A DNA stretch of 64,000 nt, taken from contig NZ_JAIVMC010000001.1 of NCBI RefSeq assembly GCF_020177265.1, positions 558,001 through 622,000 of the forward strand, read 5' to 3'. Shown one piece after another: positions 8,561 through 11,191 of the stretch (positions are counted from its first letter, which is position 1; each line of letters opens with the position of its first letter). A model generated the notes under the pieces. The model saw only the letters and a program-made list of their open reading frames with translations. It ran no database searches and was not told the DNA's origin. The DNA comes from Pseudooceanicola marinus. GTDB lineage: Bacteria; Pseudomonadota; Alphaproteobacteria; Rhodobacterales; Rhodobacteraceae. Position numbers and translations under genes: made by a program.

Positions 8561-8755
8561 GAAGATGTTGGGTGCGTCGCCTCTTGGGGGGACGAGAATT
8601 GGGAAGCCGGTGCAAGACCGGCGCTGCCCCCGCAACGGTCAGATCCGCAAGGCCTTTCGCCAGCGGCCACCGGACAGGACGGGTCCGGGAAGGCGGCGGA
8701 AGGTCGGGGCCATTTGCCCCGGGCGGGCCGAGCCCGGAAACCAGCCCGACATTGC
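8561..8755 (+). ncRNA. Cobalamin (AdoCbl) riboswitch leading gbcAB
   Basis: All conserved blocks of the cobalamin riboswitch occur in order on the plus strand: TTGGG near the 5' end, GGGAAGCCGGTGCAAGACC at 8601-8619, the B12 box CTGCCCCCGCAACGG at 8624-8638, GGCCACCGG and GGGAAGGCGG (8665-8697), and the closing GAGCCCGGAAACCAGCCC at 8730-8747. The P1 closing arms were not traced, so the outer limits are approximate. The next gene on this strand is gbcA, whose AAGGAGG lies about 110 bases downstream. The class normally represses expression when adenosylcobalamin is abundant; the expression platform, perhaps masking the ribosome site, would lie in 8756-8876, where a CCCCG/CGGGG hairpin (8792-8811) is seen. 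Confidence 0.92.
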
Positions 8756-8876
8756 GCCGAACCGCGGGTGGCGGTGGTGGCGGCACCCGGTCCCCGTGCG
8801 TCCTCGCGGGGCCTGTGCCGTCCTGCCGTGGCCCAACCCCATTTCCCCGGGTGCGTCCCGGTCAAGGAGGCTAGCC

Positions 8877-10112
8877 ATGGACGTTCAGGCCAAGGCACGA
8901 GACATGCTCAGCCGGCGCAAGCCCGGCCACTCCCTCGAGCAGGGTTTCTATACCGATCCGGAGATCTTCGCTCTGGACATGGAGAACATCTGGTATCGCG
9001 ACTGGCTGTTCGCGACGCCGGCGGCCGCCATGCCCAAGGGCGGCAGCTATGTCACCCACAAGGTCGGCCCCTACCGCGTGATCATCGTGAAGGGACAGGA
9101 CGGCGAGATCCGCGCCTTCCACAACACCTGCCGCCACCGCGGCTCGATCCTGTGCAAGGCCGACAAGGGCAACGTGGCCAAGCTGGTCTGCCCCTACCAC
9201 CAGTGGACCTATGAACTGGACGGCCGCCTGCTGTGGGCCCGCGACATGGGCCCCGATTTCGACGCCGCCGCCCATGGGCTGAAGCCGGTGAACTGCCGCA
9301 CCGTGTCGGGTCTGGTCTATATCTGCCTGGCCGACGAGGCGCCCGATTTCGACGCCTTCGCCGCCACCGTCGCCCCCTACCTGGACGTGCATGACCTGGG
9401 CAACGCCAAGGTCGCTCACCAGTCCACCATCGTCGAGAACGGCAACTGGAAGCTCGTGTGGGAAAACAACCGCGAGTGCTATCACTGCGCGGGCAACCAC
9501 CCCTCGCTCTGCCGCACCTACCCCGAGGATCCCACGATCACCGGCGTGGCCAAGGACGGCACCTTCCCGCCCAAGGTCGAGGCGCATTTCCAGCGGCTTG
9601 AGGCCGGCGGCGCGCCCTCGCGCTTCCAGATGGCCGAAGACGGCCAGTACCGGATCGCCCGCATGCCGCTGCTGGACGGCGCCGAAAGCTATACCCTGAA
9701 CGGCAAGATCGCCGTGCAGAAACGTCTCGGCCGCGTGCCCTTCCTGGATGCCGGCACCCTGCTGAAGTTCCACTATCCGACCACCTGGAACCACTTCCTG
9801 TCGGATCACTCGATCACCTTCCGGGTGACCCCGATCAGCCCGACCGAGACCGAGGTGCAGACCACCTGGCTGGTCAACAAGGACGCGGTCGAAGGCTTGG
9901 ATTACGACCTGGAGAACCTGAAGACCGTCTGGGAGCATACCAACGACGAGGACCGCCAGGTCGTGGAGGACAACCAGCAGGGCATCAATTCCCCTGCCTA
10001 TGTCCCCGGCCCCTACTCGGAAACCCACGAGGACGGCGTTCTGCAGTTCGTCGACTGGTACTGCACGACCCTGGGCAACCGGATCGACCCGGTCAGGCTG
10101 GCGGCGGAATGA
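8877..10112 (+). CDS. gbcA: Glycine betaine demethylase (monooxygenase), Rieske oxygenase subunit
   Basis: 411 residues from the ATG behind AAGGAGG. The Rieske [2Fe-2S] motif is CRHRGS followed by CPYHQW (about residues 85-110). The catalytic iron site follows with [20 protein letters not shown] and [10 protein letters not shown] further on are shared with Pseudomonas GbcA. With GbcB it removes a methyl group from glycine betaine using O2 and NAD(P)H, giving dimethylglycine and formaldehyde. The stop overlaps the gbcB start (ATGA). A cobalamin riboswitch in the leader is the notable point. Another quaternary amine substrate, such as stachydrine or carnitine, cannot be excluded from sequence, but similarity to GbcA runs through the whole protein. 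Confidence 0.88.
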
Positions 10113-11191
10113 ACGTTCCCAACCGCTCCCTCGCCCAGCCGATCAATACCTGGGACGGCTCCGCGATGCTGGAATGCGTCGCGGTGCTGCCCGAGGCGCC
10201 CAATGTCGTGACCTTCAGCTTCGCCGCCGAAGACCGGTCGATCTTCTCCTACCTGCCCGGCCAGTTCGTCACGCTTGAACTGCCGGTGCCGGGCGGGCCG
10301 CTCTATCGCACCTACACGATCTCCTCCACGCCCTCGCGGCCGCTGTGCCTGACGGTGACGGTGAAGGCGCAGGAAGGGTCCATCGGCACCCGCTGGATGC
10401 TGGACAACCTGAAACCGGGGATGAAGCTGAAGTCGACCGCCCCGGGCGGCACCTTCACCAGCCATCACCACCGGGCGGAGAAGTACCTTTTCATCTCCGC
10501 GGGCTCCGGCATCACGCCGATGAAGTCGATGACCACCTGGTTCTACGACACAGGGCGGCCCTCGGACATCGTCTTCGTCAACTGTGCCAAGCGCCCGTCG
10601 GAGATCATCTTCCGCGAGACGCTGGAACACATGGCCTCGCGCACCGACCAGCTGAAGCTGAAGTGGGTGGTCGAGGAAAGCGACCGCTTCCGTCCCTGGG
10701 CGGGCTACGAGGGCTTCTTCAACCAGCTGATGCTGGGCCTGATTGCCCCCGACTACCTGGAGCGGGAAGTGTTCTGCTGCGGCCCCGAGCCCTTCATGCA
10801 AGCCGTCCGCGAGGCGCTGCAGGGCCTGGGCTACGACATGGAGAAGTACCACCAGGAAAGCTTCCAGGCGCCGACGCCCGCACAGGCCGAGGACTACGCC
10901 GAGGACGACGTGATCCCCGACGAGGACACCAAGGCGCAGGTCCACTTCGCCAATTCCGATGTCACCGCCACCTGCGCGGAAACCGACACCATCCTGTCGG
11001 CGGCGCGCGGTGCGGGCCTCAACATTCCCTCGGGCTGTACCTTCGGGGTCTGCGGCACCTGCAAGATCAAGAAGACCAAGGGCGACGTGCACATGGTCCA
11101 CAACGGCGGCATCACCGACGACGACATCGACGAGGGCTATATCCTCGCCTGCTGTTCGCATCCCATCGGCGAGGTCGAGGTCGAGGTCTGA
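10109..11191 (+). CDS. gbcB: Glycine betaine demethylase, reductase subunit
   Basis: 360 residues. An FAD-binding domain comes first (YRTYTISS at about residue 70, with GSIGTRWM), then an NAD-binding domain ([20 protein letters not shown]), and a C-terminal plant-type [2Fe-2S] ferredoxin domain with CTFGVCGTC and a later Cys in LACCSHP. This is the order of hybrid reductases that feed Rieske oxygenases. It passes electrons from NAD(P)H to GbcA. The ATG overlaps the gbcA stop, so the two are translationally coupled; a terminator follows about 45 bases later, so the riboswitch transcript is a two-gene operon. Confidence 0.88.

Follow-up and report, generated by a model that had tools for sequence, protein, structure and literature searches.

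This study concerns a stretch of 64,000 nucleotides from the genome of Pseudooceanicola marinus (contig NZ_JAIVMC010000001.1, positions 558,001 to 622,000; hereafter the window, in whose own numbering coordinates are given), in which a complete cobalamin riboswitch lies upstream of gbcAB, a gene pair that encodes a Rieske oxygenase and its reductase of the betaine N-demethylase type. We consider it likely, with a probability of about 0.7, that gbcAB encodes an oxygen-dependent, B12-free betaine N-demethylase that is repressed through this riboswitch and serves as a backup to a corrinoid-dependent route. The first line of evidence is the aptamer itself. When the whole window was scanned with the Rfam covariance models (cmscan) at gathering-score cut-offs, RF00174 (Cobalamin) matched at 8553-8763 on the plus strand with 94.3 bits, against a gathering score of 31.5, and with an E-value of 3.5e-22; the match is full length, covering model positions 1 to 189 of 189. 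An initial annotation, made from the letters of the DNA, had reported the conserved blocks of such a riboswitch on the plus strand before gbcA and had suggested that the leader be searched with the Rfam cobalamin model, and the complete match agrees with what it reported. The only other match above gathering in the window is a tRNA at 62890-62963 on the minus strand. The aptamer stops 113 nt upstream of the oxygenase start codon (ATG at 8877) on the same strand, and it can be aligned along its length with 24 aptamers, one from each of 24 further genera; long blocks of this alignment are invariant. Cobalamin riboswitches are generally common in the order, where 120 of 121 genomes have at least one RF00174 match, and the P. 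marinus genome has three of them, scoring 94.3 bits (gbcAB), 119.3 bits and 135.9 bits.

The association of this riboswitch with gbcAB recurs among relatives. In a first set, 295 genomes of the family were searched, and homologues of the oxygenase at E <= 1e-90 were found in 64 of them, at 68 places. At 25 of these 68 places (25 genomes from 25 genera), as counted from matches on contigs that also hold gbcA and chosen by eye, the protein match is preceded on its own strand by an RF00174 match at a distance of 73-153 nt; the remaining 43 places have no RF00174 match in this position. By rough arithmetic, chance adjacency would be expected at about 0.02 places, as opposed to the 25 seen. The second set consisted of 80 named homologous loci, sharing some genomes with the first, and was searched with a covariance model built from the 25 aptamers. 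A riboswitch was found upstream of gbcA in 26 of these loci, which include Ruegeria, Shimia, Sulfitobacter, Leisingera, Phaeobacter, Roseibium, Labrys and Rhizobium. The comparison of gbcAB leaders among relatives, which had been proposed as a check at the outset, is covered by both sets. A chance match as the origin of the riboswitch is ruled out by the score of 94.3 bits and this recurrence at homologous loci. Mapped on a tree of the enzyme with 119 rows, obtained by a quick search without a mixture model, the riboswitch state changes 13 times, and 10 of these changes are forced by starred branches; both Protein Data Bank (PDB) rows, that of the enzyme Stc2 discussed below included, were entered as having no riboswitch without a look at their leaders, and the number of changes is 12 when these two rows are omitted.

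The leader between the aptamer and the start codon holds several elements, all on the plus strand, that suggest how the riboswitch may act. The loop L5 (AGGACG, 8676-8681) and the loop L13 (CGUCCU, 8799-8804) are exact complements that can form six Watson-Crick pairs, and L13 closes a P13 hairpin (CCCCGUG-CGUCCU-CGCGGGG, 8792-8811) that is present in the minimum-free-energy fold of 8760-8900. As a whole, the fold of 8760-8900 is no better than those of shuffled sequences (z -1.37, with 14 of 200 shuffles as good). Pairing between L5 and hairpin loops was examined in the 25 leaders, with dinucleotide shuffles and with L5 sequences swapped between genomes as controls. Pairing of at least 4 bp was found in 16 of the 25 leaders (shuffles: mean 11.2, reached by 5 of 100), pairing of at least 5 bp in 10 (shuffles: mean 3.2, reached by 0 of 100; swapped L5: mean 6.3, reached by 1 of 100) and pairing of at least 6 bp in 6 (shuffles: mean 0.7; swapped L5: mean 1.9; reached by 0 of 100 in each case). 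The sequences that would pair differ between genomes, such as AGGACG with CGUCCU in the window and GGAGGA with UCCUCC in genome G005. Judged by these counts against shuffles and swapped L5, the predicted kissing loop has good support in some leaders, that of the window included, whereas the test does not reveal it in others. A further hairpin (CCGGG-UGCGU-CCCGG, 8847-8861) stops 2 nt short of the Shine-Dalgarno sequence AAGGAGG (8864-8870), and similar hairpins precede this sequence in other leaders. Hairpins that end within 8 nt of the Shine-Dalgarno sequence are found in 18 of 24 leaders, the one remaining leader of the 25 having been set aside because no start codon with such a sequence could be placed, and shuffles average 3.7, with 0 of 200 reaching this count. 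The shape of this hairpin is kept among these leaders while its stem sequences differ, and in many leaders the loop contains or borders on a run of GGGG. Scans of the window leader, which are weak tests in this group of bacteria, found no intrinsic-terminator-like site between the aptamer and the start codon and no sigma70-like promoter in 8300-8900; this weak scan covers 8755-8877, the interval in which the initial annotation had considered that a promoter might bypass the riboswitch. Because both scans are negative but weak, we infer from them and from the leader, without claiming more, that control is probably at translation initiation. On the 5' side of the riboswitch, the sequence CCATGTCGCAATTGC at 8510-8524 is shared with the corresponding locus of Oceanicola sp. 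S124 (L040) and in part with loci L041 and L042, and is perhaps a regulator site.

The genes under the putative control of the riboswitch overlap by 4 nt. The first encodes an oxygenase of 411 aa (8877-10112, plus strand) with Rieske and ring-hydroxylase domains, which profile and domain matches, the nearest solved proteins and a sequence signature assign to the Group Vb Rieske enzymes of the betaine N-demethylase type (GbcA/Stc2 family); the second encodes a reductase subunit of 360 aa (10109-11191, plus strand) that is assigned to the GbcB type by profile and domain matches (FAD, NAD and 2Fe-2S domains). No other homologue of this kind is encoded in the genome; the runner-up to the oxygenase scores 94.6 bits at 29% identity. 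According to PMC7948474, group Vb is recognized by an Asn that replaces the Tyr/Phe of group Va three residues before a Cys-x-x-Cys motif. The oxygenase has this signature, with CRH at 85, CPYH at 105 and Asn198 three residues before Cys201, this pair being matched to Tyr203/Cys206 of CntA. The nearest NCBIfam family for the pair is the glycine betaine monooxygenase GbcA/GbcB. However, the oxygenase misses the cut-off of the GbcA equivalog NF058607 (513.2 bits against 670) and the reductase that of the GbcB model NF058606 (387.9 bits against 500); ten of ten further homologues also miss the NF058607 cut-off, the best with 508.7 bits. The label gbcAB in the initial annotation is therefore right in naming betaine-demethylase-type genes and goes too far where it implies the curated GbcA/GbcB families or glycine betaine as a proven substrate. 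As used here, 'gbcA' is a family-level name.

The second line of evidence is the presence of a B12-dependent counterpart. In 2025, MtgBCD was demonstrated in Ruegeria pomeroyi to be a cobalamin-dependent glycine betaine demethylase, in a paper that considers gbcAB a route of its own that occurs less often, states that the GbcAB reaction yields formaldehyde, and describes the aerobic MtgC as distinct (PMC12478193). Judged by homology, such a counterpart is encoded in the same genome as gbcAB. It consists of two MTTB (MtgB-like) proteins, a stand-alone MtgC-type corrinoid protein with an adjoining DUF1638 gene, and an MtgD-type methyl-folate:corrinoid methyltransferase (404 bits, cut-off 259). 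For the MTTB on contig C1, the closest match is 4yyc, followed by the glycine betaine methyltransferase 9yce and by 2qne, and the MTTB on contig C8 is more distant. The initial annotation had denied GbcAB a B12-using counterpart, a statement that is rejected on the published MtgBCD (PMC12478193) and on the MtgB-, MtgC- and MtgD-like proteins encoded here. Of the other two cobalamin riboswitches in the genome, one stands before nrdHIEF, for a B12-independent ribonucleotide reductase, and the other before an operon whose BtuB-like receptor and BtuC-like permease score below curated cut-offs. Because the genome holds an MtgBCD-like set as well as nrdHIEF and BtuB-like riboswitch targets, gbcAB is most likely a B12-independent alternative that B12 represses, like metE and nrdHIEF. 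Repression of B12-free isozymes by cobalamin riboswitches is an established strategy (PMC9600662, PMC3766115).

A different logic had been offered in the initial annotation, in which low B12 would turn on betaine demethylation, and the resulting glycine, as a source of 5-aminolevulinate, and one-carbon units, used in the corrin methylations, would feed B12 synthesis. It is general knowledge that glycine is the precursor of 5-aminolevulinate in alphaproteobacteria. Cobalamin riboswitches, moreover, are well known to control genes of B12 synthesis (PMC3766115). However, glycine needs two more demethylations, for which no gene was recognized among the next open reading frames scanned, and the product of GbcAB is formaldehyde (PMC12478193). 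This logic also leaves the trend with MTTB number, described below, and the presence of nrdHIEF in the regulon unexplained. We therefore regard it as improbable; it is not needed, and nothing was found in its favour.

The third line of evidence comes from the distribution of the riboswitch across genomes. In the first set, at least two MTTBs are encoded in 23 of 25 riboswitch genomes and in 18 of 39 other genomes (p = 1.6e-4). For the named set, which overlaps the first, 26 riboswitch genomes were compared with 23 genomes that represent 24 of the 54 non-riboswitch loci; at least two MTTBs are found in 24/26 and 6/23, respectively (p = 1.8e-6), and at least one in 26/26 and 13/23 (p = 1.4e-4). 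The genomic setting of gbcAB differs as well. A neighbour typical of a catabolic cluster, namely a LysR, old yellow enzyme (OYE), GbdR-like, dimethylglycine (DMG)-dehydrogenase-like or F4 gene, the last being a neighbour family without a name, occurs in 1 of 26 riboswitch loci and in 42 of 54 other named loci. In the first set it occurs in 1 of 25 riboswitch loci and in 12 of the 15 non-riboswitch loci that were fetched from the 43 such places, all these neighbour counts being made over loci of unequal length. Riboswitch copies of gbcAB mostly stand alone. In locus L202 (G367:C7, 6284-18812), gbcA occurs twice at a distance of 8 kb; one copy has a riboswitch and the other does not, and an MTTB gene follows the second copy. 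Genes for MTTB at most 10 kb from gbcA were also seen in genomes G320 and G311, by eye and among the matches listed.

Several observations weigh against the view that gbcAB is a riboswitch-controlled backup to the corrinoid route. The corrinoid protein of P. marinus misses both MtgC model cut-offs, with 198 of 370 and 169 of 310 bits, although such scores are compatible with the description of aerobic MtgC as distinct in PMC12478193. The presence of at least one MTTB does not separate the first set (25/25 against 33/39, p = 0.07). MtgC is near-universal there (23/25 against 34/39) and fails as a discriminator, and the two riboswitch genomes in which it was missed have assemblies that are 84% and 73% complete. 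Since MtgC is so widespread and 18 of the 39 genomes without a riboswitch also have at least two MTTBs, possession of both routes does not force the riboswitch. When ancestry was taken into account through seven independent pairs on the tree, the riboswitch went with at least two MTTBs in 4.1 pairs and against them in 0.0 on average (median p = 0.125). The association between riboswitch and MTTB number is thus consistent in direction, and its tree-controlled support is directional only. Likewise, the contrast in catabolic context is tied to ancestry and is not significant over independent tree pairs. Finally, the nearest relative, Oceanicola sp. S124 (L040), 87% identical and with the same gene order, has no Rfam cobalamin match and yet encodes three MTTBs, and Primorskyibacter flagellatus (L043) keeps only a riboswitch remnant of 32 bits together with two MTTBs. 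The decayed sites lie before gbcAB, at about 7720-7900 in L040 and at 7720-7766 in L043, and we read these two loci as cases in which a close relative has lost the switch naturally while keeping its MTTB genes.

Losses so close to P. marinus also bear on whether its own riboswitch is decaying, with regulation already lost. At 94.3 bits, against 119.3 and 135.9, the gbcAB riboswitch scores below the other two of the genome, and the sister strain Oceanicola sp. S124 is without any remaining riboswitch. However, the core blocks common to the 24 other aptamers are kept, and L5, which differs from that of other leaders, nevertheless pairs fully with L13. Decay to the point of lost regulation in this strain therefore seems to us quite improbable.

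A variant that is compatible with our reading of gbcAB as a riboswitch-controlled backup keeps the same switch and changes the substrate. The oxygenase would demethylate stachydrine (proline betaine) or another betaine, and the B12-using counterpart would be a different MTTB, for example the second type on contig C8, instead of MtgB. The closest solved structures are 3n0q (68.1% identity) and 3vca (65.3% identity, 644 bits), 4qup giving the same alignment as 3vca, which we take to be Stc2, the stachydrine demethylase of Sinorhizobium meliloti. Solved Stc2 of S. meliloti is described in PMC10952381 and PMC7948474. The match to 3vca contrasts with the 513 of 670 bits reached with GbcA, and 'stachydrine N-demethylase' is the source name of 2 of the 120 homologues listed (P0014 and P0116). 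In addition, longer-extent MTTBs, a class assigned by eye among the matches listed, are found in 23 of 25 riboswitch genomes and in 16 of 39 others (p = 5e-5). The tree points the other way. The window enzyme is sister to that of L040 (support 98, starred) and then to that of L041 (91), and a fork of support 88 (unstarred) unites this group with a 14-row clade whose loci contain LysR (12 of 14), GbdR-like (10) and DMG-dehydrogenase-like (9) genes, which is a glycine betaine context. Stc2 sits in a separate clade of 20 rows, with LysR in 18 of 19 loci, often with OYE, and with no riboswitch in any row. Because this fork joins the oxygenase to the GbdR-like/DMG-dehydrogenase-like clade and leaves the Stc2 clade apart, glycine betaine may be the likelier substrate by genomic context, whereas the nearest characterized enzyme, Stc2, suggests proline betaine, and we view the variant as possible but rather doubtful.

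On the other side of the riboswitch, metH, the gene for the B12-dependent methionine synthase, lies at 4432-8346 on the minus strand (TIGR02082, 1703 bits), divergent and next to gbcAB as the initial annotation had it. Beyond metH, at 3056-4222 on the minus strand, is the gene for a core-MetE-like methionine synthase (PRK06520, 434.7 bits, cut-off 313). These neighbours, which are also found in L040, as is metH at some other loci, would fit a methionine rescue, in which gbcAB and the core-MetE gene remodel the methyl supply for methionine when B12 is short and MetH is halted. However, riboswitch loci show no enrichment of metH, nrd or core-MetE genes next to gbcAB, either in the named set (5/26 against 4/54, p = 0.14) or in the first set (5/25 against 4/15, p = 0.71), and formaldehyde, the product of the Rieske reaction, is no methyl donor for homocysteine, which makes such a rescue very unlikely in our opinion. 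In L225 and L232, genes for methionine synthase and nrdHIEF adjoin gbcAB, and a span of 12 kb holds three RF00174 elements. MetH is encoded near gbcAB as two adjoining pieces, a homocysteine-methyltransferase protein and the rest, in L232, as seen by profile scan, and in L231, L225, L215 and L217, as seen by clustering.

We return to our preferred explanation, a B12-free demethylase repressed through the riboswitch. When adenosylcobalamin is sufficient, the aptamer would fold, the L5-L13 kissing loop would form and gbcAB expression would be kept low, probably at translation initiation. Under such B12-replete conditions, betaine would be demethylated by the corrinoid route, in which the MTTB-type MtgB acts with MtgC and MtgD. 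When B12 becomes short, the corrinoid route would stop, the riboswitch would free gbcAB and the Rieske enzyme would take over, with formaldehyde as the product in place of methyl-folate. The logic of metE/metH and nrdHIEF/nrdJ would in this way be carried over to betaine demethylation. The computations establish the riboswitch, its kissing loop, its recurrence and the presence of the B12-dependent set in the genome, whereas repression, the level at which it acts, a substrate common to both enzymes and the change in one-carbon flux are inferred. Such a pairing predicts a swap in the fate of the one-carbon unit, to methyl-folate with B12 and to formaldehyde without it. If this is true, a B12-controlled, B12-free backup ties betaine turnover to B12 scarcity, which would explain why genomes keep two betaine demethylation routes, and an enzyme pair is added to the isozyme logic of cobalamin riboswitches, beside methionine synthase and ribonucleotide reductase. 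More tentatively, we speculate that in a broad range of marine and soil alphaproteobacteria B12 supply may set the fate of betaine methyl groups, which would enter the folate pool through corrinoid methyltransferases when B12 is present and be released as formaldehyde by the Rieske oxygenase when it is not, through a riboswitch that has been repeatedly gained or lost at stand-alone gbcAB. This wider claim is plausible to us, although we would not yet bet on it.

The initial annotation was not aware of an earlier description of this pairing, and as far as the titles and abstract openings listed in searches of open-licence PMC go, this is borne out: none of them names a cobalamin riboswitch at gbcAB, at a stachydrine demethylase or at any other Rieske oxygenase. 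The main text of the regulon survey PMC3766115 contains neither 'betaine' nor 'oxygenase', and in the main text of PMC12478193 the word 'riboswitch' occurs once only, in the title of a reference. What appears to be new is the target pair; the class of riboswitch and the logic of isozymes were known before. The GbcAB/BmoAB enzymes of Pseudomonas and Chromohalobacter and Stc2 of Sinorhizobium are also Group Vb Rieske N-demethylases (PMC7948474), and the passages on them that were consulted do not mention a B12 riboswitch. MtgBCD of R. pomeroyi, which has homologues here, brings about the same net demethylation, provided that glycine betaine is what GbcAB acts on, but unlike GbcAB it is B12-dependent and makes methyl-folate (PMC12478193). 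The cobalamin riboswitch of nrdHIEF is present in the P. marinus genome, and beside gbcAB in some relatives, but it serves another enzyme and another pathway. The cobalamin riboswitch of metE, in genomes that also have metH, likewise precedes the B12-free enzyme of a pair and allows repression by B12 (PMC9600662). In contrast to metE and metH, however, the pair to which gbcAB belongs sets a Rieske oxygenase against a corrinoid methyltransferase system, is catabolic rather than biosynthetic, and differs in its by-products.

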